A stretch of 64,000 nt of DNA from Agromyces lapidis (GTDB lineage Bacteria; Actinomycetota; Actinomycetes; Actinomycetales; Microbacteriaceae), in assembly GCF_009749405.1 (NCBI RefSeq), contig NZ_WBIQ01000010.1, positions 62,001-126,000 on the forward strand. Direction: 5' to 3'. This document shows positions 29,802 to 42,948 of the stretch, one piece after another. The notes under the pieces were generated by a model. It searched no databases, had not been told where the DNA came from, and saw only the letters and a list, made by a program, of their open reading frames with translations. Position numbers and translations under genes: made by a program. Numbering within the stretch: position 1 is the stretch's first letter; every line of letters begins with the position of its first letter.

Positions 29802-30947
29802 GTGGACTGTTCGTACTTCGACGCCGGGCGCTGCACCTCGTGCGCCCTCATGGGTCGGCCGTACGCGCGGCAGCTCGCCGACAAGCAGGCGCACGCCGAG
29901 CAGCTGCTCGCCCCGTTCGACGTGCCCGTCTGGGAGACGCCGGTCGCGAGCCGCGAGGACGGCTACCGCAACAAGGCGAAGATGGTCGTCGGCGGCAGCG
30001 TGGATGCCCCGACGATCGGCATCCTCGACGCCGACGGGCACGGCGTCGACCTCGAGGCCTGCGGCATCTGCTCACCGGGCCACCGCGCCGCGTTCCCGGT
30101 GCTCGCACGCTTCATCACCCGCGCCCGCCTCACTCCGTACGACGTACGCCGTCGCACGGGCGAGCTGAAGCACCTCATCGTCACCGAGTCGCCCGACGGC
30201 GAGCTCATGATCCGCTTCGTGCTGCGCTCGACCGAGCCCGTGCCGCGCCTGCGCAAGCACCTCCCGACGCTCCTCGCCGAGCTGCCCCACGCGCGGGTCG
30301 TGACCGCGAATGTGCTGCCCGAGCACAAGGCGGTGCTCGAGGGCGAGCAGGAGATCGTGCTGACCGAGGCGCAGACCCTCGCGATGCGACTCAACGACGT
30401 GACGATGCACCTGCGGCCGCAGAGCTTCTTCCAGACGAACACCGAAATCGCAGCTGCGCTCTACGCCGACGCCCGCGACTGGATCCGCGAGCTCGCGCCC
30501 GACACCGCCTGGGACCTCTACTCGGGCGTCGGCGGCTTCGCCCTGCACATCGCCGGCGCCGAAGGCGACGGCGCGACTGCCGGCCCCGAGGTCACCGGCA
30601 TCGAGACGAGCGTCGAAGCGGTCGCGAGCGCCGAGCTCAGCCGAACGGATGCCGCGCTCTCGCGCCTGCGCTTCGCCTCGGGCGATGCCACGGCCTTCGC
30701 CGTCGGCGCCGAGGCGAGCCCCGATCTCGTGATCGTGAACCCGCCCCGGCGCGGCATCGGCGCCGAGCTCAGCGGCTGGCTCGAGGCATCCGCCGTCTCG
30801 CACGTGCTCTACTCGAGCTGCAACGCGGCCTCGCTCGCGAAGGACCTCGCGGCGATGCCGTCGCTGCGAGCGGTGAAGGCGCGCGTCTTCGACATGTTCC
30901 CGCAGACGACGCACTTCGAGGTGATGGTGCTGCTCGAGCGGCGCTGA
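29802..30947 (+). CDS. rlmC: 23S rRNA (uracil-C5)-methyltransferase RlmC
   Basis: 381-residue SAM-dependent methyltransferase of the RlmC/RlmD/TrmA family. The four iron-sulfur cysteines are CSYFDAGRCTSC and later CGIC; the SAM site is LYSGVGGFALH; the catalytic Cys is in LYSSCNAASLAKD and the motif NPPRRG is present. The length and short N-terminus without TRAM domain fit RlmC. TACGCT lies six bases before the GTG start. Confidence 0.9.
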   Translation: MDCSYFDAGRCTSCALMGRPYARQLADKQAHAEQLLAPFDVPVWETPVASREDGYRNKAKMVVGGSVDAPTIGILDADGHGVDLEACGICSPGHRAAFPVLARFITRARLTPYDVRRRTGELKHLIVTESPDGELMIRFVLRSTEPVPRLRKHLPTLLAELPHARVVTANVLPEHKAVLEGEQEIVLTEAQTLAMRLNDVTMHLRPQSFFQTNTEIAAALYADARDWIRELAPDTAWDLYSGVGGFALHIAGAEGDGATAGPEVTGIETSVEAVASAELSRTDAALSRLRFASGDATAFAVGAEASPDLVIVNPPRRGIGAELSGWLEASAVSHVLYSSCNAASLAKDLAAMPSLRAVKARVFDMFPQTTHFEVMVLLERR

Positions 30948-31019: not shown

Positions 31020-32348
31020 TCACCACCCGGTGGCGAGCAGGTGCTGCACGACGAGGGCGAAGCCGAGCTGGCCCGCGAACCCGAACCGCCGCCACCGCCG
31101 GTCGAGGAGCGCGGTGCCGAGCAGCAGCCACGGCACGAACGGCAGCCAGATGCGCTCGACCTCGGCCTTGCTCATCTGCGAGAGGTCGGCGGCGAGCACG
31201 GTCAGGGTCGCCGCGAGCACGAGCACGACGACGACCCGCTCACGGCGGTCGAGGCGTCGCAGCCGGATGCCTCGGTGCACCGCCACGGCGACCGAGGCAC
31301 CCACGACCGGACCGGCGCTGACGGCGAGCGCGGCGAGATCGCCCCAGATCCAGTACGTGAGCGGCCTGCGGCTCGCGATGCCGTCCCAGTACCGGTCGAC
31401 CAGCACCGGATAGGCCTCCCACCAGGCGAATCCGAATGCGGCGAAGGCGAGCACCACGGCGAGCGCCGTTGCGGCTGCGAGGGGCAGCGGCCACCAGCAC
31501 CGCGCCAGCCAGAGCACGCCGAGCGCGAGCAGCCCCAGCAGCGGAAGCCCGTAGGACAGCATCACGCAGTAGCCGAGCAGGACCCCCGCGACGAGGGCCC
31601 ACCCGACGAGCGCGACCCGCCGCCGGGCGGTGGCGGCGAATCCGAGCGCGCACAGCCCCCACGCGGCGACCGCGGCGAACATGCCGTCGGCCGAGACCGC
31701 CATCCAGATCGCCGACGGGCCCATGACGAGGAACGGCGCGGCACGGCGCGCCCAGCGTTCGGCGTCGAGCCGGCGCAGCAGCACGAGCACCGCGATCGGG
31801 GTCGTCGCACCGACGAGCAGCACGACGAGGCCCGCGGCGAATGCGCTGCCGAGGCCGAGTCGCACGAGCACGACGAAGAAGAGCAGGGCACCCGGCGGGT
31901 GGCCGGCGATGTGCACGGGCCAGTTGTCGTCCGAGTCGAGCGGGATTCGCGACACGTACTCCTGCAGCGTCGCCGGGAAGTCGGTCACCGCGCGCGCAGT
32001 GTTCAGGTACTCGTAGGAGGTATCGAGGATGACGCCGATGCCGTCCGCCCCGTCGACGACCGCGAGGCTCGTGAGCCAGGCCGCACCGACGACGAAGCCG
32101 CCGGTGACGAGCGCCCACCACGGCGCCCGGACGGCGGCCTCGGTGCCGTAGACGGCGGAGGCGAGCGCGAGCACCACGGCAGGGAGCGTGCCGGGGCCGA
32201 CGCGTGGCATCCACTCCACGTGGAGCGGAGGGAAGGATCGCACGTGCACGTTCCAGTCGAGCACCGCCGGCACGACCATGGCGAGCACGATCAGGGCGAC
32301 GGCGACCGACAATCCGATCCACGGCACGGCGGCGGGGCGAGCGGGCAC
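31020..32348 (-). CDS. Polytopic membrane protein, GT-C glycosyltransferase-like
   Basis: 442 residues with about eleven transmembrane helices. The first external loop carries DSDDNWPVHIAGHPPGALLFF, with acidic residues and His placed as in GT-C (polyprenyl-phosphate-sugar using) transferases, but I cannot name a family. The end is LATGW after the last helix. TAGGGT lies six bases before the GTG start, and the shared box at 32393-32410 ends exactly 32 bp before that hexamer. It is thus co-regulated with the divergent oxidoreductase gene. Confidence 0.7.
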   Translation of the reverse strand: MPARPAAVPWIGLSVAVALIVLAMVVPAVLDWNVHVRSFPPLHVEWMPRVGPGTLPAVVLALASAVYGTEAAVRAPWWALVTGGFVVGAAWLTSLAVVDGADGIGVILDTSYEYLNTARAVTDFPATLQEYVSRIPLDSDDNWPVHIAGHPPGALLFFVVLVRLGLGSAFAAGLVVLLVGATTPIAVLVLLRRLDAERWARRAAPFLVMGPSAIWMAVSADGMFAAVAAWGLCALGFAATARRRVALVGWALVAGVLLGYCVMLSYGLPLLGLLALGVLWLARCWWPLPLAAATALAVVLAFAAFGFAWWEAYPVLVDRYWDGIASRRPLTYWIWGDLAALAVSAGPVVGASVAVAVHRGIRLRRLDRRERVVVVLVLAATLTVLAADLSQMSKAEVERIWLPFVPWLLLGTALLDRRWRRFGFAGQLGFALVVQHLLATGW

Positions 32349-32392
32349 GTCTCGACCCTAGGGAACCCGCCCTGCCGCGACCCCGGTGAGAG

Positions 32393-32410
32393 CTTACGAA
32401 ACAGGAACGG
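32393..32410 (-). promoter_or_regulatory. Cluster box a (CTTACG-N6-GAACGG)
   Basis: CTTACG at 32393-32398 and GAACGG at 32405-32410. Read towards the minus-strand gene at 31020-32348 it is CCGTTC-N6-CGTAAG, and 32 bp separate it from that gene's TAGGGT -10. The half-sites TTACGA and GAACGG repeat with an 11-bp period. Confidence 0.75.
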
Positions 32411-32425
32411 CGGGCCCGTGGCATC

Positions 32426-32443
32426 CCGTTCGCGAACCGTAAG
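32426..32443 (+). promoter_or_regulatory. Cluster box b (same motif, inverted)
   Basis: CCGTTC at 32426-32431 and CGTAAG at 32438-32443, the reverse complement of the motif in box a, 15 bp from it. It ends 32 bp before TCGACT (32476-32481), which lies seven bases before the ATG at 32489. Confidence 0.75.
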
Positions 32444-32488
32444 CTCCGCGCGCTGCAGGCGAACCTCCGAACTGCTCGACTTGAGTGC

Positions 32489-33682
32489 ATGGCTGGTCTC
32501 ACCGAGCGGGCGTCCGCGCGGCTCGCAGCGCGGTTGGCGCGGGTCGAACCGCTCGTCCGAGGTGCGCGCGAGCGCAGCGAAGATCCGGTGAAGTCGGCAC
32601 GCACCGCCGTGGTCGTCGGGCGGCTGCTGGCGGCGGCGTTCCTCGTCTGCTTCGCGACCGGACTGTACAGCCACGTGCTGCAGAATCCCCTGCCCTGGCT
32701 GCCCCTGCCGACCCGACCCGCCGAGCTCTACCGGTACACCCAGGGCACCCACGTCGTCACCGGCATCGCCTCGGTGCCGCTCCTGCTCGCGAAGCTCTGG
32801 ACCGTGTACCCGAGACTCTTCCGCTGGCCGCCCGTGCGTTCCCCGGCGCAACTGCTCGAGCGCATCTCGATCGCGGTGCTCGTCGGAGTCTCCCTCGTCG
32901 AGGTGACGATCGGGCTGCTCAACATCGTGCAGTGGTACCCGTTCCCCTTCTCGTTCCGGTCGACGCACTTCGCGCTCGCGTGGGTCGCGATCGGCAGCCT
33001 CGCCATCCACCTCGGCGTGAAGCTGCCGGTGATCGCTCGCGTCTGGCGCCGACCGGCAGGTGATGAACCGGATGCCACGGGACGCTTCATCTCGCGCCGC
33101 GCCTTCCTCGGCGGGGTCGGCGTGGCGACCGTCTCGGCAGCGGCGCTCACGGCGGGGCAGTCGGTCGAGGTGCTCGGGCCGCTGAACCTGCTCGCCCCAC
33201 GCCGAATGGGAGTGGGACCGCAGGGTCTGCCCGTCAACCGCACGGCCGCGCAGGCCGGCGTCGCCGACGACGACGTGGCCGACGGTTGGTCGCTGCGACT
33301 GATCACGCCCACCGGTGTTCGCGCGTTCACCCTCGACGAATTGCGGCGGATGCCGCAGAGCGACGCCGTCCTGCCGATCGCGTGCGTCGAGGGTTGGAGC
33401 CAGTCGGCCTCCTGGCGCGGCGTGCGCCTGGTCGACCTGCTGGCCGAGGTGGACGCCGCGCCGACGACGCCGCTCGTGATCTCGAGCCTGCAGCGGCGAG
33501 GTGCGTTCTCCCGCACCGAGATGCCGCCCGAGTACGCCGCCGACCCGCTCACCCTCGTCGCGCTCGAGCTCAACGGCGGTGTGCTGCACCTCGACCACGG
33601 GTATCCGGCGCGGATCATCGCGCCCGGCCGTCCCGGCGTGATGCAGACGAAGTGGCTGAGCTCGATCGAGGTGCGGTCATGA
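32489..33682 (+). CDS. Membrane-anchored molybdopterin oxidoreductase (sulfite oxidase/MsrP fold)
   Basis: 397 residues in two parts. Residues about 40-185 contain four helices with His residues (SHVLQN, GTHVVTGI, STHFALAW, AIHLGVK) placed as for b-type haem. After SRRAFLGGVGVATVSAAA, a twin-arginine-like anchor near residue 200, comes a sulfite-oxidase-type molybdopterin domain with ligand C299 in IACVEGWSQSASWRGV. The fold recalls MsrP, which repairs oxidised envelope proteins and pairs with a haem membrane protein MsrQ; here the two are fused in one chain. Substrate unproven. The gene overlaps the next by ATGA and carries box b upstream. Confidence 0.82.
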   Translation: MAGLTERASARLAARLARVEPLVRGARERSEDPVKSARTAVVVGRLLAAAFLVCFATGLYSHVLQNPLPWLPLPTRPAELYRYTQGTHVVTGIASVPLLLAKLWTVYPRLFRWPPVRSPAQLLERISIAVLVGVSLVEVTIGLLNIVQWYPFPFSFRSTHFALAWVAIGSLAIHLGVKLPVIARVWRRPAGDEPDATGRFISRRAFLGGVGVATVSAAALTAGQSVEVLGPLNLLAPRRMGVGPQGLPVNRTAAQAGVADDDVADGWSLRLITPTGVRAFTLDELRRMPQSDAVLPIACVEGWSQSASWRGVRLVDLLAEVDAAPTTPLVISSLQRRGAFSRTEMPPEYAADPLTLVALELNGGVLHLDHGYPARIIAPGRPGVMQTKWLSSIEVRS

Positions 33683-34242
33683 GCGCCGTCGTTGCGGCCC
33701 GGGTGCTGCTCGTCGCCGCCGGGCTCGTCTTCGTCGGGGTGGGCGGTGCGGTGATGCTCACCGAGGTGCCGCCCGAGCGCTACCTGGGAATCGCCGTCTG
33801 GGTGGGAGCCGCGATCGTCGTGCACGACGCGGTCATCGCGCCCGTCGTGGTCGCCGTGGGCCTCGGGGCCGGCGCGGTCCGCGACCGGCTGGGTCGACGT
33901 GCAGTCGCGGTGGGGCAGGGAGCGCTGCTGGTCGGCGCCGTGCTCACCGCGATCGCGCTGCCCGCGATCATCGCGCAGGAACGAGGGAACGCCAACCCGA
34001 CGGTGCTCGTCGGGTCGTACGCCCTCGTGATCGTGATCGTGTGGGCGGTGGTCGCCGCGGTGCTGCTCGCGGTGACGTCGCCGGCGATCGGCCGGATGCT
34101 CCGGCGGGCGCGCCGGGCCGGGCGGTCCCGCCGGCCTGCCCGGCCTGTCCGGCCTGTCCCGTCTCGCCGGCCCGCCCCGTCTGGCCGGCCTGCCCGGTCT
34201 CGTCAGGCCGGGCGGCCAGAGGGCACCGAACGCACGAAGTGA
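33679..34242 (+). CDS. Small membrane protein with Arg/Pro-rich tail
   Basis: 187 residues: four hydrophobic helices up to about residue 135, then a basic tail of about 50 residues built from degenerate RPARPVRPVP-like repeats. No family recognised. It is translationally coupled to the molybdopterin oxidoreductase gene and is probably its partner. The last 40 bases overlap the 3' end of the convergent methyltransferase gene. The tail is encoded by degenerate 10-bp CCGGCCTGYC-like repeats (about 34130-34200). Confidence 0.7.
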   Translation: MSAVVAARVLLVAAGLVFVGVGGAVMLTEVPPERYLGIAVWVGAAIVVHDAVIAPVVVAVGLGAGAVRDRLGRRAVAVGQGALLVGAVLTAIALPAIIAQERGNANPTVLVGSYALVIVIVWAVVAAVLLAVTSPAIGRMLRRARRAGRSRRPARPVRPVPSRRPAPSGRPARSRQAGRPEGTERTK

Positions 34243-34973
34243 CGGCCGGCCGCCTCCCAGTGCGCCACCGTTTCGAGTCCGGCCCGTCGCGCGACCGCGA
34301 CCACGGCGGCCCAGCCGACGCGTGCCCACGGGAACGGCTCGCTCTCGTTGCCCTCGTCATCGGCCACCGTGCACATCGCCCGCACGGAGAGATCGGGATC
34401 GGGGTCCACCTCGACGACGACCGACCCCGAGGGCGCGAGCAACTCGCGGCATCGCCGAAGCAGCGACTCGGGATCGCCGCCGATGCCGACGTTGCCGTCC
34501 ATGAGCAGCACCGTCTGCCAGTGCCCCTCGAGCGGCACCCGCTCGAACACCGAGCGCAGCAACACGAGGCTGCCGTCGGCGCGGGTTCGGGCGACGGCGT
34601 GCGGGGCGATGTCGATGCCGAGCGCGGGGATGGAGCGGGCCGCCGCGGCGCGCACCATGCGGCCGGGGCCGCACCCGACGTCGAGCGTGGGGCCGGTCGT
34701 GCCCTCGAGCGCGGTCAGGTCGGCGGGTGTCGCCGAGCGGATCCAGCTTCCGGCGTCGAGATGGTACGGGCCGTGGCGTCCGTCGACGCTGCGGAGCACG
34801 AGCGCTCGTGCTGGCACCACGTCGGGCACCGGTTCGGCGAGGGCGATTCGCAGCGGCGTGGACGGATCGCCGACGGCGGTGGCGATCGCCGCCTCGAGCA
34901 GCCGCCCGTAGGGCTCGCCGCGCCCGGCGCCGAACGAGCCCGCGCGTCGGACCTGCGGTGCCGAACCGCTCAT
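34203..34973 (-). CDS. Class I SAM-dependent methyltransferase
   Basis: 256-residue methyltransferase with motif I LDVGCGPGRMV (about residue 97), the acidic LGIDIAP and motif IV-like VLLMDGNVGIGGDP. No cysteine pattern of ArsM is present. The acceptor is unknown. The ATG overlaps the stop of the DUF2064 gene, so it is the last gene of the GT2 - DUF2064 - methyltransferase operon. It may methylate the glycosylated product of that operon. Confidence 0.85.
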   Translation of the reverse strand: MSGSAPQVRRAGSFGAGRGEPYGRLLEAAIATAVGDPSTPLRIALAEPVPDVVPARALVLRSVDGRHGPYHLDAGSWIRSATPADLTALEGTTGPTLDVGCGPGRMVRAAAARSIPALGIDIAPHAVARTRADGSLVLLRSVFERVPLEGHWQTVLLMDGNVGIGGDPESLLRRCRELLAPSGSVVVEVDPDPDLSVRAMCTVADDEGNESEPFPWARVGWAAVVAVARRAGLETVAHWEAAGRHFVRSVPSGRPA

Positions 34974-35605
34974 GCGTGCACTCCTGCGAGCCGGCGGAAC
35001 TCCTGCGCGAATCGGGTGCCCGGGGCGTCGCGCGCGACCGCTGCGGCCTCGGCGATCGTGTCGACGTCGGTCAGCTCGGGCAGCACGCCGACCCGGAGGC
35101 CGGCCTCGACGAGCCGGCGATGCTGCCGTGCGCCGGTGTCGGCCCGGGACATGGAGACGCCGCGCACGAGGTCACCCTTCGGCGCGCGGAGCGCGAGCAG
35201 CCAGAACCCCCCGTCGGCGGCGGGGCCGATCCAGCCGTCCCGCTCGTCCGCGCCCGCGCCGAGCGAGTCGAGTGCGGCGGCGAGGTGCGCGTGGGTGAGT
35301 TGCGGGGTGTCCATGCCGACCAGGAGCACGGGTTCGCTCAGCGCGTCGAACAACTGCGCGAGCCGCTCGTCGAGCGTGCCCGAGCCCTGCGGCATCACCT
35401 CGAACCCCGCCGCCAGAGCCGGCGTTCGTGCGCCCTCGAAGTACAGGAGGCGCCGGGACGCCGGCATCTCGGCCACCGCCGAGAGCGTGTCGTCGAGGCA
35501 CGCCGCCGCGAGCTGCGCCGACTCGTCGAGCGTGAACGGCGGGTGCAGCCGCGTCTTCACCCGCCCGGGCACGCACTCCTTGGCGATCACCGCGATCGCC
35601 GTCAT
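34970..35605 (-). CDS. DUF2064 (TIGR04282-type) glycosyltransferase
   Basis: 211-residue GT-A-like nucleotidyl/glycosyltransferase of the DUF2064 family: IAVIAKECVPGRVKTRLHPP at the N-terminus, LLVGMDTPQLTHAHL (metal-binding Asp) and DGGFWLLALR. The family has been named from neighbourhoods linked to arsenosugars, but its biochemistry is not settled. Overlaps both neighbours by ATGA. Confidence 0.82.
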   Translation of the reverse strand: MTAIAVIAKECVPGRVKTRLHPPFTLDESAQLAAACLDDTLSAVAEMPASRRLLYFEGARTPALAAGFEVMPQGSGTLDERLAQLFDALSEPVLLVGMDTPQLTHAHLAAALDSLGAGADERDGWIGPAADGGFWLLALRAPKGDLVRGVSMSRADTGARQHRRLVEAGLRVGVLPELTDVDTIAEAAAVARDAPGTRFAQEFRRLAGVHA

Positions 35606-36270
35606 CGCGCGACCTCCGCGAACACGCGCGACATGTCGGCGACGGCCGTGACCGTTCCGCGCACCGTGCCGGTGACCTTCGACCGACCGGCCCGCGGGGC
35701 GTACGAAACGTCGAGCTCGCGGATGCGCCACCCGGCAGCGGCCGCCCGCAGCACGAGTTCGAGCGGGTAGCCGCTTCGACGATCGCGCACGTCGAGCGCG
35801 CGCAGCGCGTCGGTGCGCGCCACCCGGAGCGGCCCGAGATCGTGCAGCCGCACTCCGCTGCGCCGGGCCACCCGCGCCGCCAGCACACGGTTGGCGAACC
35901 GGGCGTGCGCCGGCCACGCCCCCCGCGTCGTCGGACGGCGGCGGCCGAGCACGAGGTCGGCATCGCCGCGTTCGACCGCGACGATGAGGCGGGCGAGTTC
36001 GGCCGGGTCGAGCGAGGCGTCGGCGTCGCAGAAGGCGACGAGCGGTGCCCGGACCGCCGCGAGACCCCTCGCGACCGCCGCCCCGTACCCGCGCCGGGGC
36101 TCCGCCACGACGAGAGCACCGCGCTCTCGGGCGAGCTCGGCCGAGCGATCGGATGACCCGTTGTCGACGACGATCGCACGGCACCATGCCGGCACCCGGT
36201 CGAGCACCCACGGCAGCGCCTGCTCCTCATCGAGGCAGGGCAGCACGAGGTCGACGCGCGCTTCGATCAT
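35602..36270 (-). CDS. Family 2 glycosyltransferase
   Basis: 222-residue GT2 with VDLVLPCLDEEQALPWVLDRVP, VDNGSSDRSAELARE and FCDADASLDPAEL (DxD-type metal site), and an RSGYPLELVLRAAAAGWRIRELDVSY acceptor segment; the type that uses nucleotide sugars and often a polyprenyl phosphate acceptor. First gene of its operon: TAGCGT lies seven bases before the ATG, and box c ends exactly 32 bp before that hexamer. Confidence 0.87.
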   Translation of the reverse strand: MIEARVDLVLPCLDEEQALPWVLDRVPAWCRAIVVDNGSSDRSAELARERGALVVAEPRRGYGAAVARGLAAVRAPLVAFCDADASLDPAELARLIVAVERGDADLVLGRRRPTTRGAWPAHARFANRVLAARVARRSGVRLHDLGPLRVARTDALRALDVRDRRSGYPLELVLRAAAAGWRIRELDVSYAPRAGRSKVTGTVRGTVTAVADMSRVFAEVAR

Positions 36271-36315
36271 GGTTTCGACGCTACGACGCGAGGGATCGCC
36301 CGAGGCGCGTCAAGT

Positions 36316-36333
36316 CTTACGGAATCCGGACGG
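36316..36333. promoter_or_regulatory. Cluster box c (CTTACG-N6-GGACGG)
   Basis: CTTACG at 36316-36321 and GGACGG at 36328-36333, between the GT2 gene (minus) and the response regulator gene (plus). It lies 32 bp from the GT2 -10 (TAGCGT) and 37 bp from the regulator's TACTCT (36371-36376). Confidence 0.75.
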
Positions 36334-36382
36334 ATGCCAGGCCGGCAGGCCTGCCGCACCGGGGCAGACGTACTCTGTGTAG

Positions 36383-37123
36383 GTGCCTCCCGCTGCGCCG
36401 TCGACCATCGGCAACGAAGACCTCGTCGGTCGACGCGTCCTGCTGGTCGACGACGACCCCACGGTGTCCGAGGTGGCCTCGAGCTACCTGCGCGCCTCGG
36501 GTTTCGTCGTCGATGAGGCGAGCGACGGCTTCGCGGCACTCCACTCCGTCGAGTCGCACGCACCCGACCTCGTCGTGCTCGATCGGATGCTGCCGGGCAT
36601 CGACGGGCTCGAGGTGTTCCGCCGGCTCCGCGAACAGACGGCCGCACCGGTGATCCTGCTCACCGCCCTCGGTTCCGAAGACGACCGCATCGCGGGTCTC
36701 GAGGCCGGCGCCGACGACTATCTCACCAAGCCGTTCTCGCCGCGCGAGCTCGTGCTGCGAGCGCAGTCGGTGCTTCGCCGGTCGCTCGACGAGTTCGCGC
36801 CCGCGGCCGTGCTGGAGTGCGGCGAGTTCCGGCTCGATCCCTCGGCGCGCACCGCTCGCCGAGGTGACGTCGAACTGTCGCTCACCACACGGGAGTTCGA
36901 CCTGTTCGAGTTCCTGCTGAAGCATCCGAACCAGGTGTTCAGTCGTGAGGACCTGCTGCGCACCGTGTGGGGATGGACCTACGGCGATCTCTCGACGGTC
37001 ACGGTGCACGTGCGCCGATTGCGCGAGAAGATCGAGCGCGACCCGCGCGCACCGACGATGCTGACGACCGTGTGGGGCGTCGGCTACCGATTCACGATGG
37101 AGGCTGCAGATGCCGTGGGCTGA
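36383..37123 (+). CDS. OmpR-family response regulator
   Basis: 246 residues: receiver domain with LLVDDDPTV and phospho-acceptor D67 in DLVVLDRMLPGIDGL, then a winged-helix domain with SLTTREFDLFEFLLKHPNQVFSREDLLRTVWGW. GTG start at 36383 with TACTCT six bases upstream, so leaderless. It overlaps the kinase gene by 14 bases. It is the best candidate to bind the four cluster boxes, including box c in its own promoter, which would make it autoregulated. Confidence 0.93.
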   Translation: MPPAAPSTIGNEDLVGRRVLLVDDDPTVSEVASSYLRASGFVVDEASDGFAALHSVESHAPDLVVLDRMLPGIDGLEVFRRLREQTAAPVILLTALGSEDDRIAGLEAGADDYLTKPFSPRELVLRAQSVLRRSLDEFAPAAVLECGEFRLDPSARTARRGDVELSLTTREFDLFEFLLKHPNQVFSREDLLRTVWGWTYGDLSTVTVHVRRLREKIERDPRAPTMLTTVWGVGYRFTMEAADAVG

Positions 37124-38255
37124 CCTCCTCGCGATCGCCGGCATCGCGTTCGCGACCTCCGCCCTCGTCGGCGCCGCCGGCGTCGTCGCGCTCCTGCTGC
37201 TTCGTCGCACCTCGGTCGTGGTGCAGATCTGCGTGCTCGTGATCGCCGCCGTCGCGTCGATCGTGGCGAGCATGGTCGGCGTGGCGAACGAGATGTACCT
37301 CTCCGAGCACGACCTGACGGTCGCCGTCGCGATCGCCACGATCTCCGGCGTCGTCTCGCTGGGGCTCGTCGCCGTACTCGGCGGTCTCGTCGCCCGCAAC
37401 GCGCGCGCCCTGTCGGCCGCGGCCCGCCGTATCGGCGCGGGCGAGCGACTCGAATCCGCCGGCCGCTACTCCAACAGCGAACTGAGCGCCCTCGCCGACG
37501 AACTCGTGGCGACGAGTGCGAAGCTCGCCGAGTCGCGCGAGCGCGAGCAACGCATCGAGGCATCTCGTCGCGAACTCATCGCCTGGATCTCGCACGACCT
37601 GCGCACCCCGCTCGCGGGGATCCGCGCGATGGCCGAGGCGCTCGAGGACGGCATCGCGCCCGACCCCGAGCGGTATCACCGTCAGATGCGCATCCAGGTC
37701 GATCGGCTCACGAGCATGGTCGACGACCTCTTCGAGCTGTCGAAGATCGACGCCGATGCGATGCGCCTCTCGCTCGAGGAGGTGTCGCTGCCCGACATCG
37801 TGAGCGACACCGTCGCCGATCTGCGACCCGCCTCCCGCGGGCGCGAGATCCGGGTCGAGGCCGCGCTCGCGCACGACCTCGTCGTCATGGCCGATCCGCG
37901 AGAGCTCTCGCGCGCCATCGGCAACCTGATCATGAACGCCGTGCAGCACACGCCCGACGGCACGCCCATCACGGTCACCGTCGACCTCGTGCACGATCGG
38001 GCGATCGTGTCGGTGATCGACGCGGGCGGCGGCATCGACGAGGCCGACCTCGAGCGGGTGTTCGACCCTGCTTGGCGCGGGTCGAAGGCGCGCACGCCGT
38101 CGCTCGAGACCGGCCCCTCGGTCGGCGCCGGGCTCGGTCTCGCGATCGTGAAGGGCATCATGAGCGCGCACCGCGGCGAGGTCGCCGTTCGCAACGTCCC
38201 GGGCGGGTGCCGCTTCGACCTGGTGTTCCCGCTCGACACCCCGGTCGGCGCCTAG
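37110..38255 (+). CDS. Sensor histidine kinase
   Basis: 381 residues: three N-terminal helices (about 4-32, 36-58, 68-92) with almost no external loop except a stretch near residues 58-68, a HAMP-like linker, phospho-acceptor H162 in WISHDLRTPLAGI, and an ATPase domain with NLIMNAVQHTP, DAGGGI and GLGLAIVKG. Little external domain suggests it senses the membrane, a redox state or a membrane partner. The stop codon overlaps the stop of the convergent epimerase gene. Confidence 0.92.
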   Translation: MPWADLLAIAGIAFATSALVGAAGVVALLLLRRTSVVVQICVLVIAAVASIVASMVGVANEMYLSEHDLTVAVAIATISGVVSLGLVAVLGGLVARNARALSAAARRIGAGERLESAGRYSNSELSALADELVATSAKLAESREREQRIEASRRELIAWISHDLRTPLAGIRAMAEALEDGIAPDPERYHRQMRIQVDRLTSMVDDLFELSKIDADAMRLSLEEVSLPDIVSDTVADLRPASRGREIRVEAALAHDLVVMADPRELSRAIGNLIMNAVQHTPDGTPITVTVDLVHDRAIVSVIDAGGGIDEADLERVFDPAWRGSKARTPSLETGPSVGAGLGLAIVKGIMSAHRGEVAVRNVPGGCRFDLVFPLDTPVGA

Positions 38256-39304
38256 ACCACCTCGTCCGTGCTCGCGCCCGCGAACTCGCGGAGCCCCGAC
38301 TCGAGATCGACGACGGCCGACCAGTCGAGCTCGTCGTGCGCCCGCGCCGACGACGCCGTGATGTGGCGCACGTCGCCGAGCCGGTACTCGCCCGTGACGA
38401 CCGGCGGCGGGCCGTGCATCGCACGGGCGAGCCCTGCCGCGATCTCGCCGACGGTCGTCACGGTGCCCGAGCCGATGTTGAACGCGCGCACCGTCGACGG
38501 CGTCTGCGCGCCGAGCCAGCCGATCGCGGCGAGGTTCGCCCTGGCGACGTCCTGCACATGCACGAAGTCCCGTCGCTGGCCGCCGTCCTCGAACACGCGG
38601 GGCGCCGCCCCGTGCGCGAGCGCCGAGCGGAAGATCGCGGCCACGCCGGCGTACGGCGTGTCACGAGGCATCCCGACGCCGTAGACGTTGTGGTACCGCA
38701 GCGTCGCGACCGAGCCTCCCGTCGAGCGCGCCCACTCGGCGCCCAGATGCTCCTGGGCGAGCTTCGTGAGGGCGTAGTTGTTGCGTGGATCGAGCCGGTC
38801 GTCCTCGTCGATCAGCCCGGGCTCCAGCGGCGCACCCGTCTCCGCATCTCTCGGCTCGAACCGCCCCGCCTCGAGATCGTCGACGGCGCGCGGGGCGGGG
38901 CGCCGCCGCCGGCCCGCCGCATCACGGTAGGCGCCCTCGCCGTAGACCACCATCGACGACGCGAGCACGAGCGACCCGCAGCCCGAGCGGCCCATGGCGG
39001 CGATCAGCTCGGCGGTGCCGAGCACGTTCGTCGACGCGTAGTCGGGGGCGTCGGCGAGCTCGACGCCGAGCCCGACTTTCGCCGCCTGATGACAGACGAC
39101 GTCGACCCCGCGCAGCGCCGCGTCGAGCGCCGCGGGGTCGCGGAGGTCTCCCCGGACGAACTCGACCCCGGAGATCGCCCTGGGCGGTGAGTGATGCACG
39201 TCGGGTCGCAGCGCGTCGAACACCCGCACCGGCCGCCCCTCCGCGACCGCGAGCCGCACGATCTCTCGGCCGATGAACCCCGCACCGCCGGTCACGAGCA
39301 GCAT
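38252..39304 (-). CDS. NAD-dependent epimerase/dehydratase (NDP-sugar type)
   Basis: 350-residue extended short-chain dehydrogenase. NAD site VTGGAGFIGREIV, catalytic YALTK (Y-x3-K) and the upstream SSMVVYGEG place it among UDP-glucose epimerase-like enzymes. The ATG at 39304 overlaps the stop of the MTAP-like gene (TGATG). It probably supplies a modified sugar nucleotide for the cluster glycosyltransferases. Confidence 0.87.
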   Translation of the reverse strand: MLLVTGGAGFIGREIVRLAVAEGRPVRVFDALRPDVHHSPPRAISGVEFVRGDLRDPAALDAALRGVDVVCHQAAKVGLGVELADAPDYASTNVLGTAELIAAMGRSGCGSLVLASSMVVYGEGAYRDAAGRRRRPAPRAVDDLEAGRFEPRDAETGAPLEPGLIDEDDRLDPRNNYALTKLAQEHLGAEWARSTGGSVATLRYHNVYGVGMPRDTPYAGVAAIFRSALAHGAAPRVFEDGGQRRDFVHVQDVARANLAAIGWLGAQTPSTVRAFNIGSGTVTTVGEIAAGLARAMHGPPPVVTGEYRLGDVRHITASSARAHDELDWSAVVDLESGLREFAGASTDEVV

Positions 39305-40104
39305 CACGGCACCGCGGGCCGGGCGAGCACGATGCGGATCGCGTCGTCGTCGATCGTCGGACGCGGAGCGTACGAGTCCGGCACCGCCCCGACGAGGCGT
39401 TCGAGTGCCGTGGTGATGCGGAGCTTCGCGGCGGCCAGGCGGCGGAAGACGAGCTCCGCACTCGCCGCGTCGGGGTCGTCGTGCGCGTTGCCGCTGTCGG
39501 TGTCGGTCACGAAGCAGAGCGCGACGGTGCCCATGCCGAGTTCGGCCGCGAGCGCCACTTCGGGGCAGAGCGTCATGTTGACGAGATCGACCCCGTGTTC
39601 ACGCAGGATCCGCGATTCGGCAGCGGTCGAGAACCGCGGCCCGTCGATCACCGCGACCGTCGCGGCGGGGGCCGCGTCGGGTATCGCCGCGGCCGCGAGG
39701 CCGCGGAGCTCGGGGCAGAACGGCTCGGCGAACGGCAGGTGGCGGACCACGCCGTCTGCGCCGTCGAAGAAGGTGCCGGCGCGGCCGGTCGTGCGGTCGA
39801 CGAGCTGGTCGGCGATCGCGAAGCGCTCGGGCGCCAGCTCGGCCCGGAGCGAGCCGACGGCCGCGGTCGACACGATCGCTCGCACACCGAGGCACGCGAG
39901 CGCCCACGCGTTCGCACGCGCGTTGACCCGGTTCGGCGGCACCGTGTGGCCCGCGCCGTGCCGGGCGATGAACACGACCTCGCGGCCGCCGAGTTCGCCG
40001 ACCGTCACGACCGCCTCGCCGTACGGCGTCGCCACCGGGCGACGGTCGCCGCCGACCAGCTCGCCCAGCCCGCTGCCGCCGATCACACCCACAGAGTCCG
40101 CCAT
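39304..40104 (-). CDS. MTAP/purine nucleoside phosphorylase family protein
   Basis: 266 residues of the PNP/MTAP phosphorylase family: VGVIGGSGLGEL, phosphate-binding FIARHGAGHTVPPNRVNARANAWAL, STAAVGSLR, DGPRFSTAAESR and LVNMTLCPEVALA. The NMT segment favours methylthioadenosine or a related nucleoside. The start at 40104 is set by CAGGGT seven bases upstream, itself 32 bp from box d; the longer frame to 40200 would cover the box. Placed with a methyltransferase and glycosyltransferases, it may process a nucleoside intermediate instead of salvaging MTA. Confidence 0.85.
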   Translation of the reverse strand: MADSVGVIGGSGLGELVGGDRRPVATPYGEAVVTVGELGGREVVFIARHGAGHTVPPNRVNARANAWALACLGVRAIVSTAAVGSLRAELAPERFAIADQLVDRTTGRAGTFFDGADGVVRHLPFAEPFCPELRGLAAAAIPDAAPAATVAVIDGPRFSTAAESRILREHGVDLVNMTLCPEVALAAELGMGTVALCFVTDTDSGNAHDDPDAASAELVFRRLAAAKLRITTALERLVGAVPDSYAPRPTIDDDAIRIVLARPAVP

Positions 40105-40149
40105 GTTCCCAACCCTGCCCGTCGAGCCGGGCCCCGGGCCCCGCAATCC

Positions 40150-40167
40150 CTTACGATCCGATGACGG
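40150..40167. promoter_or_regulatory. Cluster box d (CTTACG-N6-TGACGG)
   Basis: CTTACG at 40150-40155 and TGACGG at 40162-40167, between the phosphorylase gene (minus) and the thioredoxin lipoprotein gene (plus). It lies 32 bp from CAGGGT of the minus gene and 37 bp from TACCGT (40205-40210) of the plus gene, the same distances as box c. Confidence 0.72.
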
Positions 40168-40257
40168 CTGCGCCGAGAGGGGCCGCCGACCGCCCGCCAC
40201 GGCCTACCGTTGAATCGGATCGGGGCGCCCCGCCCCGCCCGTGAGGACGACCGAACC

Positions 40258-40746
40258 ATGCGACTGCGCACACTGACCGGCATTCCCCTCCTGCTCGGCG
40301 CGCTCGCGGTCGCGGGGTGCTCATCTGCGATCTCGGATGTCCCGGAGACGATGCCGGGCTCGAGCACGGGCGTCACCGCCGAGCCGACGCCGACGCCGTC
40401 GGGCGAGGTCGTGCCCGAGGCATCCGAACCGTCGGCGATCGTGGGCGCCTACCTCGACTACGAAGACGGTGCGATCGAAGCGACGAGCGGGCCCAAGGCC
40501 CTGTTCTTCTACGCGAGCTGGTGCCCGAAGTGCCGCGCCCTCGACGAGGCGCTGCTCGCCGAGGGGCCGCCCGACGAGCTGACCGTGTTCAAGGTCGACT
40601 ACGACGAGCGCACCGATCTGCGGCAGCGCTACGGTGTGACGCTGCAGACCACGATCGTCTTCGTCGACGACCGCGGTGAACTCGTGTCGAGCACCGTGCT
40701 CTACGAGGATCCCTCGATCGAGTCGCTGCGCGCCGCGATGCCCTGA
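40258..40746 (+). CDS. Thioredoxin-fold lipoprotein
   Basis: 162 residues. A lipoprotein signal ends in LAVAGC (C21); a Thr/Pro/Glu-rich linker leads to a thioredoxin domain with FFYASWCPKC (C89, C92). It is anchored outside the membrane, where it can pass electrons received from CcdA, the next gene. GAGGA lies about 11 bases before the ATG; TACCGT (40205-40210) is the likely -10. Confidence 0.88.
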   Translation: MRLRTLTGIPLLLGALAVAGCSSAISDVPETMPGSSTGVTAEPTPTPSGEVVPEASEPSAIVGAYLDYEDGAIEATSGPKALFFYASWCPKCRALDEALLAEGPPDELTVFKVDYDERTDLRQRYGVTLQTTIVFVDDRGELVSSTVLYEDPSIESLRAAMP

Positions 40747-40760
40747 ACGACGGCGATCCC

Positions 40761-41504
40761 GTGACCGCTTCCCTGCTGCTCAGCTTCGCCGCCGGCGTGC
40801 TGACCGTCGCCGCGCCCTGCGTGCTGCCGTTGGTGCCGGTCGTCGCCGGCGGTGCGATCGTTCGCGACGGCGGCGAGCTGCGACGCGCGCGCTGGCGGCC
40901 GTACGTCGTCGCGGCGTCGCTCGCCGTGAGCGTCGTGCTGTTCACCCTGCTGCTGAAGGCGACCACGGCCCTGCTCGGGGTTCCGCCCCAGGTATGGCAA
41001 CTCGTGTCGGGCGGTATCGTCGTGCTGCTCGGCCTCGACCTGCTGTTCCCCGCCGTGTGGGACCGCATCTCGTCGGCGCTGCGGCTGTCGGCCCGCAGCG
41101 GAGCGGTGCTCGACCGCTCGATCTCACGTCAGGGCTTCACCGGCGATGTGCTGACCGGTGCGGCGCTCGGCCCGGTCTTCTCGAGCTGCAGTCCCACGTA
41201 CGCCCTCATCGTCGCGGCGGTGCTGCCGGTCTCGTTCGGCGAGGGACTGCTCTACGTCATCGCGTATGCGGCCGGCCTCGCCGGCATGCTGCTGCTCGTG
41301 GCCCTCGTCGGGCGTGCGCTCGTGCGACGGCTCGGCTGGCTCGCGGACCCCCGCGGCTGGTTCCGCCGCACGATCGGGGCGCTCTTCGTGCTCGTCGGCA
41401 TCGCGGTGATCGTCGGCTTCGACAAGCAACTGCAGACGTGGATCCTCGACGCCGGGCTCTACGATCCGATCGCCCGGCTGGAGGAGCTGATCGGCGCCGG
41501 ATGA
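40761..41504 (+). CDS. ccdA: Cytochrome c biogenesis protein CcdA (thiol electron carrier)
   Basis: 247 residues with six helices. The reactive cysteines lie in VAAPCVLPLVPVVAGGAIV and VFSSCSPTYALIVAAVLP. CcdA moves electrons from cytosolic thioredoxin across the membrane to extracytoplasmic thiol proteins. The GTG start lies 14 bases after the thioredoxin lipoprotein gene; the two form one redox relay. Confidence 0.9.
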   Translation: MTASLLLSFAAGVLTVAAPCVLPLVPVVAGGAIVRDGGELRRARWRPYVVAASLAVSVVLFTLLLKATTALLGVPPQVWQLVSGGIVVLLGLDLLFPAVWDRISSALRLSARSGAVLDRSISRQGFTGDVLTGAALGPVFSSCSPTYALIVAAVLPVSFGEGLLYVIAYAAGLAGMLLLVALVGRALVRRLGWLADPRGWFRRTIGALFVLVGIAVIVGFDKQLQTWILDAGLYDPIARLEELIGAG

Positions 41505-41565: not shown

Positions 41566-42948
41566 TCACCCGTCGGTCGGTCGCGCCAGGGATGCCGTCA
41601 GTCGCTCGAGCTCGGCGAGCCGGTCGGCCCGGTCGCGCGGCACGCCGGGCACGCCGGGTCGCTGCTGGTCGGGACGCGGCCCGTCGACGGGCCGGAAGTC
41701 GACCCCCTGCTCCTCGAGCCAGGCGAGGTAGTCGGGGAGCCGCTCCGCGAACGGCGCCCAGTCGATCGGTCCGCCGTTCCAGGCGATCTCGGCGAACGCC
41801 CCCAGCCGCGGGAACACCGCGTAGTCGAGCCGGTCGCGCGTGTCGAGGTGCTCGGTCCAGACGTTCGCCTGCACGCCCGCGATGCGCTCGGCGTACCACT
41901 CGGGCGCGTCAGCCGGCACGGGGTCGAAGGTCGCGACGTCCTCGAGCGAGAGCACGGTGCCGACCGGGATCGGCTCCTCCGCGGCATCCGACTGCCGGTA
42001 GTCGAGGTAGGTCCAGAGGTCGGGGCAGAGCACGACGTCGTGCCCCAGCCGGGCGCCGAGCTCGGCGCCGACGGGGCCGCGCCACGAGGCGACCACCGCG
42101 TCGGGCGCGGGGTCGCGCCCTTCGAGCATCTCGTCCCAGCCGACGACGCGGCGCCCCTGCCCGCGCAGCCGGTCGGCGATCTGCGCGAGGAACCACGACT
42201 GCAGCTCCTCCTCATCGGCGAGGCCGCGTTCGGCCATGAGCTCCTGCGTGCGCGCGTCCTCGCGCCAGAGGCGCTTCCGCGCCTCGTCGCCGCCGATGCC
42301 GATGAACTCCGAGTCGAACACCTCGCACAGCTCGTCGAACACGGTGCCGACGAACTCGAGGGTGTCCGACTCGACGTTCAGCACCTCGTCGCTGATCCCG
42401 TAGCGCGTCCACGGTTCGGCGACGCGCGCCCGCACCGCGTCGGCCCCGCCGACGCCGAACTCGGGATACGCGGCGAGGATCGCCTGCGCATGCCCCGGCA
42501 CGTCGATCTCGGGCACGATGCGGATGCCGCGCTCCGCCGCGAACCGCACGAGCCCCCGCAGCTCGAGCTGGGTGTACGAGCCCTCGTGGGGCACGCCGTC
42601 GAGCGTCGAGTGCGGCCCGTGGCCGAGCTGCGACTGCGAGCGCCGCCCGCCGATCTCCGTGAGGCGCGGGTAGGCGCGCACCTCGAAGCGCCAGCCCTGG
42701 TCGTCGGTGAGGTGGAGTTGCAGCACGTTGAGCCCGTGCGCGGCGAGCAGTTCGACGAAGCGCTCGAGATCGGCGATCGGGCGGAACCGGCGGGCGACGT
42801 CGAGCATGACGCCGCGCCAGGCGAAGCGGGGCTCGCCGTCGAGGCGGAGGCCCGGGGCGCGCTGGTCGAGGAGCGCGGAGCGCGTATCGAGACCCTCGTC
42901 GCCGTGGTCTCGATACGCTTCGCCACTCGACCGACGGACCGCGCTCAC
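41566..42948 (-). CDS. GH20 beta-N-acetylhexosaminidase, lacking its N-terminal domain
   Basis: 460-residue family 20 glycosidase. The catalytic barrel is complete: FAWRGVMLDVARRF, LTDDQGWRFEV, EIDVPGHAQAI and the catalytic Asp-Glu in GIGGDEARKRLW. The usual GH20b domain of about 100 residues before the barrel is absent; instead the first 28 codons are a REP-like element (42864-42932). The GTG at 42948 overlaps the proC stop by GTGA. This may be a 5'-truncated gene still read through coupling to proC, or it may be inactive. No signal peptide. Confidence 0.8.
   Translation of the reverse strand: MSAVRRSSGEAYRDHGDEGLDTRSALLDQRAPGLRLDGEPRFAWRGVMLDVARRFRPIADLERFVELLAAHGLNVLQLHLTDDQGWRFEVRAYPRLTEIGGRRSQSQLGHGPHSTLDGVPHEGSYTQLELRGLVRFAAERGIRIVPEIDVPGHAQAILAAYPEFGVGGADAVRARVAEPWTRYGISDEVLNVESDTLEFVGTVFDELCEVFDSEFIGIGGDEARKRLWREDARTQELMAERGLADEEELQSWFLAQIADRLRGQGRRVVGWDEMLEGRDPAPDAVVASWRGPVGAELGARLGHDVVLCPDLWTYLDYRQSDAAEEPIPVGTVLSLEDVATFDPVPADAPEWYAERIAGVQANVWTEHLDTRDRLDYAVFPRLGAFAEIAWNGGPIDWAPFAERLPDYLAWLEEQGVDFRPVDGPRPDQQRPGVPGVPRDRADRLAELERLTASLARPTDG
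42864..42932. repeat. REP-like palindromic element inside the GH20 5' end
   Basis: Left arm GGTCGAGGAGCGC plus GTATCGAGACC, an 11-base loop, then GGTCTCGATACG and CTCGACC. The same arms form the element at 62082-62164. Its position inside an open frame is unusual for intergenic repeats of this type. Confidence 0.8.

Follow-up and report, generated by a model that had tools for sequence, protein, structure and literature searches.

A predicted operator of an OmpR-type regulator at a molybdo-enzyme, thiol-redox and sugar gene cluster of Agromyces lapidis

A 64,000-nucleotide stretch of the genome of Agromyces lapidis (contig NZ_WBIQ01000010.1, positions 62,001 to 126,000; here called the window) carries a cluster of twelve genes, at 31020-41504, in which four copies of an 18-bp box, CTTACG-N6-KRACGG, stand between divergent genes, including those of an OmpR-family response regulator and a sensor kinase. 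One of the closest described counterparts is the HprSR-MsrPQ system of Escherichia coli. According to excerpts of two papers, HprSR controls MsrP, a molybdopterin enzyme that reduces methionine sulfoxide, and its kinase senses hypochlorous acid (HOCl) via two loop methionines (PMC10151825, PMC9302797). Here, too, a two-component system stands beside a molybdopterin oxidoreductase with a CVE[AG]WS motif, the membrane part weakly resembles a b-type cytochrome, and a methionine lies in the extracytoplasmic loop of the kinase, as an excerpt of PMC10151825 describes for HprS. Unlike in E. coli, the enzyme and its membrane anchor are fused in one gene, the sensor loop is very short, and the predicted targets include a sugar cassette and a thioredoxin/CcdA pair. 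No match to the MsrQ family occurs among the twelve genes, the fused anchor reaching 19.2 bits for Ni_hydr_CYTB against a cut-off of 30.1.

Two further systems are related by the kind of their regulators. MtrA of Mycobacterium tuberculosis belongs to the same OmpR/PhoB family and is the closest response regulator of solved structure (2gwr, 192.7 bits), whereas the regulator of the cluster reaches 224.7 bits with the MtrA equivalog model, well short of its cut-off of 300 bits. CutRS of Streptomyces is likewise an actinobacterial two-component system for envelope (secretion) stress; identity with it was rejected, as the CutR binding motif, given as TAWATAAA in an excerpt of PMC12802291, is absent from all four boxes.

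The sugar genes recall methylthioxylose capping in mycobacteria. Lipid-linked methylthioxylose is the product of MtxS (Rv0539) in M. tuberculosis, from where MtxT (Rv0541c) passes it on to lipoarabinomannan (excerpt of PMC8780516). The route starts from methylthioadenosine, and the excerpted text of a 2024 paper describes methylthioxylose addition outside lipoarabinomannan assembly as unclear (PMC11127046); Rv0535 is named a methylthioadenosine phosphorylase in the title of a reference visible in part of PMC5738077. The Agromyces cluster resembles this pathway in bringing together a 5'-methylthioadenosine-phosphorylase (MTAP)-type enzyme, a glycosyltransferase like polyprenyl-phosphate-sugar synthases, an epimerase and a polytopic membrane protein. 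The mycobacterial genes also share one neighbourhood with an epimerase gene and a DUF2064 gene. A link to mycobacteria is seen in a 16.5-kb contig of Mycolicibacterium palauense (L094), where relatives of the polytopic membrane protein (here TMd), the methyltransferase, DUF2064 and the glycosyltransferase lie beside the regulator and kinase; the phosphorylase, epimerase and molybdo-enzyme were not seen on that contig. The mycobacterial acceptor is lipoarabinomannan, which is not known from the present organism; the cassette here goes together with a two-component system and a molybdo-enzyme, and its likeness to the mycobacterial pathway is one of protein families.

A search of openly licensed papers gave, among the matches listed, no description of the operator, the regulon or the cluster. 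The predicted regulon is new, and its kind is already known. In this way, a cluster of mostly uncharacterised genes becomes a predicted regulon with a defined operator.

The best overall explanation, to which we assign a probability of about 0.7, unites an operator, an oxidation-responsive circuit, a molybdo-enzyme and a sugar cassette. Its firmest part is the operator itself: the four boxes are almost certainly, as predicted from their sequence and distribution, the binding sites of the cluster's own OmpR-type regulator. This assignment rests on the uniqueness of the box, its conservation, its presence at cassettes linked to the regulator and absence from unlinked ones, its kept distance to promoters and its 11-bp repeat. 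The twelve genes form three divergent pairs, that is, six operons, and the preliminary description of the cluster was a fair one. In the first pair, TMd (31020-32348) faces a molybdopterin oxidoreductase and a small membrane protein; in the second, a methyltransferase-like protein, DUF2064 and a family 2 glycosyltransferase (GT2) face the regulator and kinase; in the third, an epimerase and the MTAP-type phosphorylase face a thioredoxin-like lipoprotein and a CcdA-like protein. The boxes and the -10-like hexamers are as follows (distances run from box to hexamer).

32393-32410, plus strand: box a (CTTACGAAACAGGAACGG), CTTACG side towards 31020-32348, 32 bp
32426-32443, minus strand: box b (CTTACGGTTCGCGAACGG), CTTACG side towards 32489, 32 bp
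36316-36333, plus strand: box c (CTTACGGAATCCGGACGG), with the glycosyltransferase -10 at 32 bp and the regulator -10 at 37 bp
40150-40167, plus strand: box d (CTTACGATCCGATGACGG), with the phosphorylase -10 at 32 bp and the thioredoxin -10 at 37 bp
32355-32360, minus strand: -10-like TAGGGT, 6 nt upstream of the GTG of 31020-32348
32476-32481, plus strand: -10-like TCGACT (weak), 7 nt upstream of the ATG at 32489
36278-36283, minus strand: -10-like TAGCGT, 7 nt upstream of the ATG of 35602-36270
36371-36376, plus strand: -10-like TACTCT, 6 nt upstream of the GTG at 36383
40112-40117, minus strand: -10-like CAGGGT, 7 nt upstream of the ATG of 39304-40104
40205-40210, plus strand: -10-like TACCGT, with the gene start at 40258 lying 47 nt beyond

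An exact search of the window returned the four boxes where they had been described, against 0.01 expected from shuffles, and the whole genome (3,801,572 bases) holds the same four cluster sites and none further. The preliminary description had named many unrelated matches across the genome as a finding that would tell against the box; no further exact match exists genome-wide. The reversed pattern, used as a control, has 0 matches in the whole 3.80-Mb genome, and the relaxed form CTTACG-N8-ACGG again finds just the four cluster sites as exact matches. It had also been claimed that neither CTTACG nor CGTAAG recurs elsewhere in the 64 kb. Four CTTACG were counted in the window; with 6.35 expected, this hexamer by itself is not rare, and the rarity belongs to the paired half-sites only. 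Mismatch-tolerant genome scans were rejected as evidence because their counts do not exceed those of the controls (555 versus 783 for the box with up to two mismatches, 120 versus 270 for CTTACG-N8-ACGG with up to one).

The distances of the preliminary description, namely 32 bp to a -10-like hexamer at the four gene-facing sites and 37 bp from boxes c and d to TACTCT and TACCGT, came out the same on re-measuring the sequence. Since five of the six hexamers stand 6-7 nt upstream of an ATG or GTG, the transcripts of those five box-facing genes are probably leaderless, and the mRNA of the thioredoxin gene (40258) would carry a leader. A window scan for sigma-70-type promoter pairs found none, which is little informative, as shuffles yield merely 0.2.

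The conservation of the box was followed through relatives of the regulator. Regulator matches in the family grade from 82% identity into a crowd at about 48%, and the orthologue cut of 233 bits was our own choice, with scores continuing through 223 and 214 bits. At this cut, 56 of 299 family genomes have a match (own genome included, counted by eye), from which 47 others were sampled and 8 left out. Matches at E 1e-66 or better were found in 55 of 396 genomes of the order and in 120 of 296 from the rest of the class, where the regulator is common; the 59 order-level rows comprise 33 newly sampled, 1 own, 5 already in the set and 20 left out. The regulator sample amounts to 80 stretches of at most 20 kb each, together with L090, L091 and L094, the only loci used of 80 (mostly paralogues) from a regulator scan of named genomes, giving 83 loci besides the window; L091, L094 and some other stretches are shortened by contig ends. 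Control cassettes were taken from the 84 of 299 family genomes with the glycosyltransferase, 47 of which have no regulator match of at least 233 bits (by eye): 40 cassettes came from such genomes (7 of the 47 being left out) and 4 from elsewhere in genomes with the regulator. Neither an exact box core nor a match to the regulator occurs in these 44 control stretches.

A first matrix was built from the window's four boxes alone and is hence independent of the relatives. With it, the best score upstream of the regulator reached p<=0.01 against its own shuffles in 44 of the 83 other loci, and best scores above 8 bits lay 50 times on the expected plus strand and 3 times on the minus strand. A refined matrix, made from 50 regulator-upstream sites (the window's included) and applied with a threshold of 18 bits, found 87 sites in the 84 regulator loci (1.63 Mb, window and training sites included). 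The same loci read as reversed sequence gave 0, and so did the 44 control cassettes that have no regulator linked to them (0.79 Mb), among which one site of 15.2 bits lies in L285. Counted per locus, 39/46 regulator-linked cassettes and 0/44 unlinked ones have such a site; the Fisher value of 1e-18 overstates this difference, given that the loci share ancestry and many of them served for training. At 24 of the 46 linked cassettes, a site also lies outside the upstream region of the regulator and therefore outside the training sites. The sugar cassette recurs beside the regulator in several gene orders, often with boxes in front. Because all 40 + 4 unlinked cassettes lack an 18-bit site, the box is tied to the regulator and not to the biosynthetic genes, and the idea that it is a property of the sugar cassette itself was rejected on the same count. 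The preliminary description had proposed checking whether the boxes are conserved in relatives; the box indeed recurs upstream of orthologous regulators and of neighbouring promoters with its promoter spacing kept.

This spacing was surveyed at 100 boxes (99 matrix sites of at least 15 bits and box b) by looking, within 110 bp, for TANNNT with an ATG or GTG 4-9 nt further on. On the CTTACG side, 44/56 such leaderless starts lie at 32-33 bp, 3 at 21-22, 4 at 43-45 and the remaining 5 elsewhere; the ACGG side has 13/54 at 36-37 bp, 24 at 46-48, 1 at 26 and 16 elsewhere (ten beyond 60 bp). Shuffled flanks give about 8 starts per side. The distance from box to promoter shifts mainly by whole helical turns. 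No conserved -35-like hexamer was seen between box and -10; the promoters of the oxidoreductase and the phosphorylase, judged by eye, mostly lack a good TANNNT, but many keep a -10-like stretch at about this position. The self-repeat of the matrix is strongest at a lag of 11 bp (among lags 5-13), in line with the 11-bp half-site period noted earlier. The OmpR-family membership of the regulator (36383-37123) is clear from its receiver (PF00072, 110.1 bits) and Trans_reg_C (PF00486, 95.0 bits) domains, and its recognition helix is near-unchanged among orthologues, with or without a detected box. From the position of the box we infer activation rather than repression, by an OmpR/PhoB-type activator of which one site would drive two divergent promoters.

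The genes of the cluster are listed below.

31020-32348, minus strand: TMd, a polytopic membrane protein without a Pfam family
32489-33682, plus strand: membrane-anchored molybdopterin oxidoreductase (Oxidored_molyb) with an MsrP-type CVEGWS motif and a weakly cytochrome-b561-like N-terminus
33679-34242, plus strand: tm5, a small membrane protein without an assigned family
34203-34973, minus strand: S-adenosylmethionine-dependent methyltransferase-like protein
34970-35605, minus strand: DUF2064 protein (TIGR04282/CofC-like), with one match genome-wide
35602-36270, minus strand: family 2 glycosyltransferase (GT2), like polyprenyl-phosphate sugar synthases
36383-37123, plus strand: OmpR/PhoB-type response regulator, the proposed binder of the box
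37110-38255, plus strand: sensor histidine kinase with Met62 in a short loop
38252-39307, minus strand: epimerase/dehydratase dependent on nicotinamide adenine dinucleotide
39304-40104, minus strand: 5'-methylthioadenosine-phosphorylase-type enzyme
40258-40746, plus strand: thioredoxin-like lipoprotein
40761-41504, plus strand: CcdA/DsbD-type membrane protein with a weak Pfam score

In relatives, the box also faces other genes. It stands before moaA in five loci (L247, L252, L255, L256, L257) and before moeA in L232 and L261; in L261 an extra box lies between moaA and the gene of a molybdate-binding-type protein, called ModA-like from its solute-binding family (PF13531) beside moaA. Thioredoxin genes face it in L195, L236, L242 and L270, and a CcdA gene does so in L239. 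Such a molybdenum-enzyme theme is what would be expected if the molybdo-enzyme is the core output. Genes of extracytoplasmic function (ECF) sigma factors face the box in L197, L198 and L199, with a further such site in L200; these sigma factors may resemble SigK. The notion of a twelve-gene system under one box thus stands as regards a cluster facing its boxes and needs amending as regards a fixed unit: because the box serves changing neighbours in relatives, the set of twelve found here is a single version of the regulon. Regulon rewiring in Actinobacteria is cleanly illustrated by an operator that goes with its regulator while acquiring a sugar cassette, moaA/moeA, thioredoxin/CcdA and ECF sigma genes at a fixed helical phase. 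Two kinds of box-facing product were recorded besides: a thioredoxin-like lipoprotein with a methionine-rich N-terminal stretch (L270:11951-12523, minus strand), and a 224-residue lipoprotein behind an extra box (L207:16232-16906, plus strand; L208:3288-3962, minus strand), for which a Pfam scan of the L207 protein gave no family.

The proposed circuit runs as follows. The regulator would bind two direct half-sites 11 bp apart and activate divergent promoters, including its own; these would lack a conserved -35, carry a TANNNT-like -10 in constant helical register with the box and yield mostly leaderless mRNAs. The paired kinase probably detects envelope oxidation (or copper) via its short loop. 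In an alignment of 75 orthologues (the window's included, proteins shorter than 300 residues left out), Met62 is invariant (75/75). It sits in the short loop that joins predicted membrane helices, and its invariance makes oxidation sensing plausible; we give even odds to oxidation of the envelope being the signal. The output would be a membrane-anchored molybdo-enzyme, the thioredoxin/CcdA pair and the sugar cassette.

The molybdo-enzyme is predicted from its motif to be, probably, a sulfoxide reductase. Its domain (PF00174) scores 77.7 bits, and its CVEGWS aligns with CVEAWS of E. coli 1xdq, a structure that the structure table labels a bacterial sulfite oxidase and that we take to be YedY/MsrP. 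The motif C-x-E-G-W (C[VI]EGW) is present in 77/83 copies of the enzyme, the other six being fragments where the best match missed it. A predicted structure was too poor for a fold search, with a mean predicted local distance difference test (pLDDT) of 51.4. In L206, L209, L210 and L245, matches to the enzyme are split into two stretches (in different frames in L206); the two separate stretches suggest that the anchor and the molybdenum domain, fused in the window, may be separate genes there.

For the sugar cassette, a methylthio-sugar is predicted as the product, with odds that we place slightly below even. The phosphorylase scores 162.5 bits to the MTA phosphorylase structure 2a8y. The genome holds two MTAP-family matches, this one at 216.6 bits and another at 72.2 bits, both below the cut-off, and mtnA, the next enzyme of methionine salvage, was not found in a genome search. 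GT2 (35602-36270) is related to ArnC/DPM synthases, i.e., lipid-phosphate sugar synthases. As proposed, the phosphorylase would leave methylthioribose-1-phosphate, which the cassette probably turns into a polyprenyl-phosphate-linked methylthio-pentose, probably placed on an envelope glycan in the manner of mycobacterial methylthioxylose. This bears on the open question of methylthioxylose addition outside lipoarabinomannan. TMd relatives (tblastn, at least 100 bits) occur in 17/46 regulator-linked cassettes versus 0/44 others; TMd was thus found with the regulator only, whereas the other cassette genes are common in its absence. In four relatives scanned, GT87 transferases occupy the place of TMd.

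A speculative extension, which we regard as unlikely, is a rechargeable antioxidant glycan: the kinase would detect oxidation of the envelope, the regulon would cap a surface glycan with a methylthio-pentose, the thioether of this sugar would scavenge oxidants, and the molybdo-enzyme would re-reduce the methylsulfinyl form, aided by the cofactor and thiol-redox genes that are co-regulated in relatives. If true, it would give a methylthioxylose-type pathway outside mycobacteria and lipoarabinomannan, and one with a purpose.

Several points weigh against the overall explanation. No molybdenum-cofactor gene faces any of the four boxes in this genome. Over the whole domain, the sulfite-oxidising relatives of the molybdo-enzyme score higher, so it could be an oxidase: NCBIfam SoxC reaches 48.5 bits (cut-off 420) versus 31.7 for MsrP (cut-off 207), and plant sulfite oxidase 1ogp 29.9 versus 26.4 bits for 1xdq, both weak. 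The substrate of the enzyme could also be protein methionine sulfoxide rather than a sugar. The phosphorylase lies below the NCBIfam MTAP cut-off (216.6 versus 274.85 bits) and was found in 34/46 linked and 27/40 regulator-less stretches, some of them cut by contig ends. A comparison with solved structures gave no significant match for TMd, its profile gives no match to the GT87 proteins of relatives, and its predicted structure (mean pLDDT 39.3) was too poor for a fold search. Finally, no site of at least 15 bits was seen at 7/46 linked cassettes (six from a single genus, and L220) or at 18/37 regulators without a cassette; at those loci the box has therefore diverged or disappeared.

The alternative that survives best, possible rather than probable in our estimate, keeps the regulator and its box and takes the circuit as plain protein methionine-sulfoxide or thiol repair, similar to HprSR-MsrPQ, with the sugar cassette as a captured neighbour making an unrelated product. 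It fits the MsrP-type motif of the molybdo-enzyme, the 37/83 loci where no sugar genes lie within roughly 10 kb of the regulator (CcdA-type genes being present at 10 of these), and the 40 sampled cassettes whose genomes lack a close match to the regulator. In those same 40 regulator-less stretches, however, the molybdo-enzyme gene stays with the sugar genes 34 times, a co-occurrence suggesting that enzyme and sugar genes are functionally linked independently of the regulator.

Rather doubtful is a kinase that senses copper or another soft metal through a site made of Met62, His67 and Asp68. The residues are well kept among the 75 aligned kinases (His67 in 51/75 and Asp68 in 66/75, beside the invariant Met62), and copper, acting via CusSR, likewise induces msrP in E. 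coli (excerpt of PMC9302797), but no copper-handling family was named among the twelve genes or the scanned box-facing genes of relatives. A sulfite-oxidase-type dehydrogenase in a circuit for sulfur oxidation instead of sulfoxide repair is improbable: SoxC and sulfite oxidases do outscore MsrP over the domain, against which stand the MsrP-type molybdenum-ligand motif in 77/83 copies, the thioredoxin/CcdA partners and the lack of any other named sulfur-oxidation family in the twelve genes.

Ownership of the box by another regulator, for example an ECF sigma factor or a different response regulator, with the box merely travelling with the cluster, is very improbable. ECF sigma genes do face the box in four relatives, but the box accompanies the regulator orthologue among varied neighbours and is missing at cassettes without it; besides, ECF promoters are not known to consist of a direct repeat of 11 bp lying about 50-60 bp upstream of the start. 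Chance or a codon-bias artefact of a GC-rich genome is practically negligible and was rejected on genome-wide uniqueness, conservation upstream of regulators and the refined-matrix counts, four full matches in the window and the kept spacing outweighing the near-expected count of CTTACG alone and an exact pattern that is near background across the family (66/299 genomes, in 13 of which, besides the own, it lies near a regulator orthologue by eye).

Some minor features of the cluster and its flanks may be added. The convergent genes 33679-34242 (plus strand) and 34203-34973 (minus strand) share 40 bases (34203-34242), and the small membrane protein encoded by the former has a low-complexity, proline/arginine-rich C-terminal tail. 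The flanking genes look ordinary by eye, with an RNA uracil methyltransferase-like protein at 29802-30947 and a family-20 glycosidase-like protein at 41566-42948.

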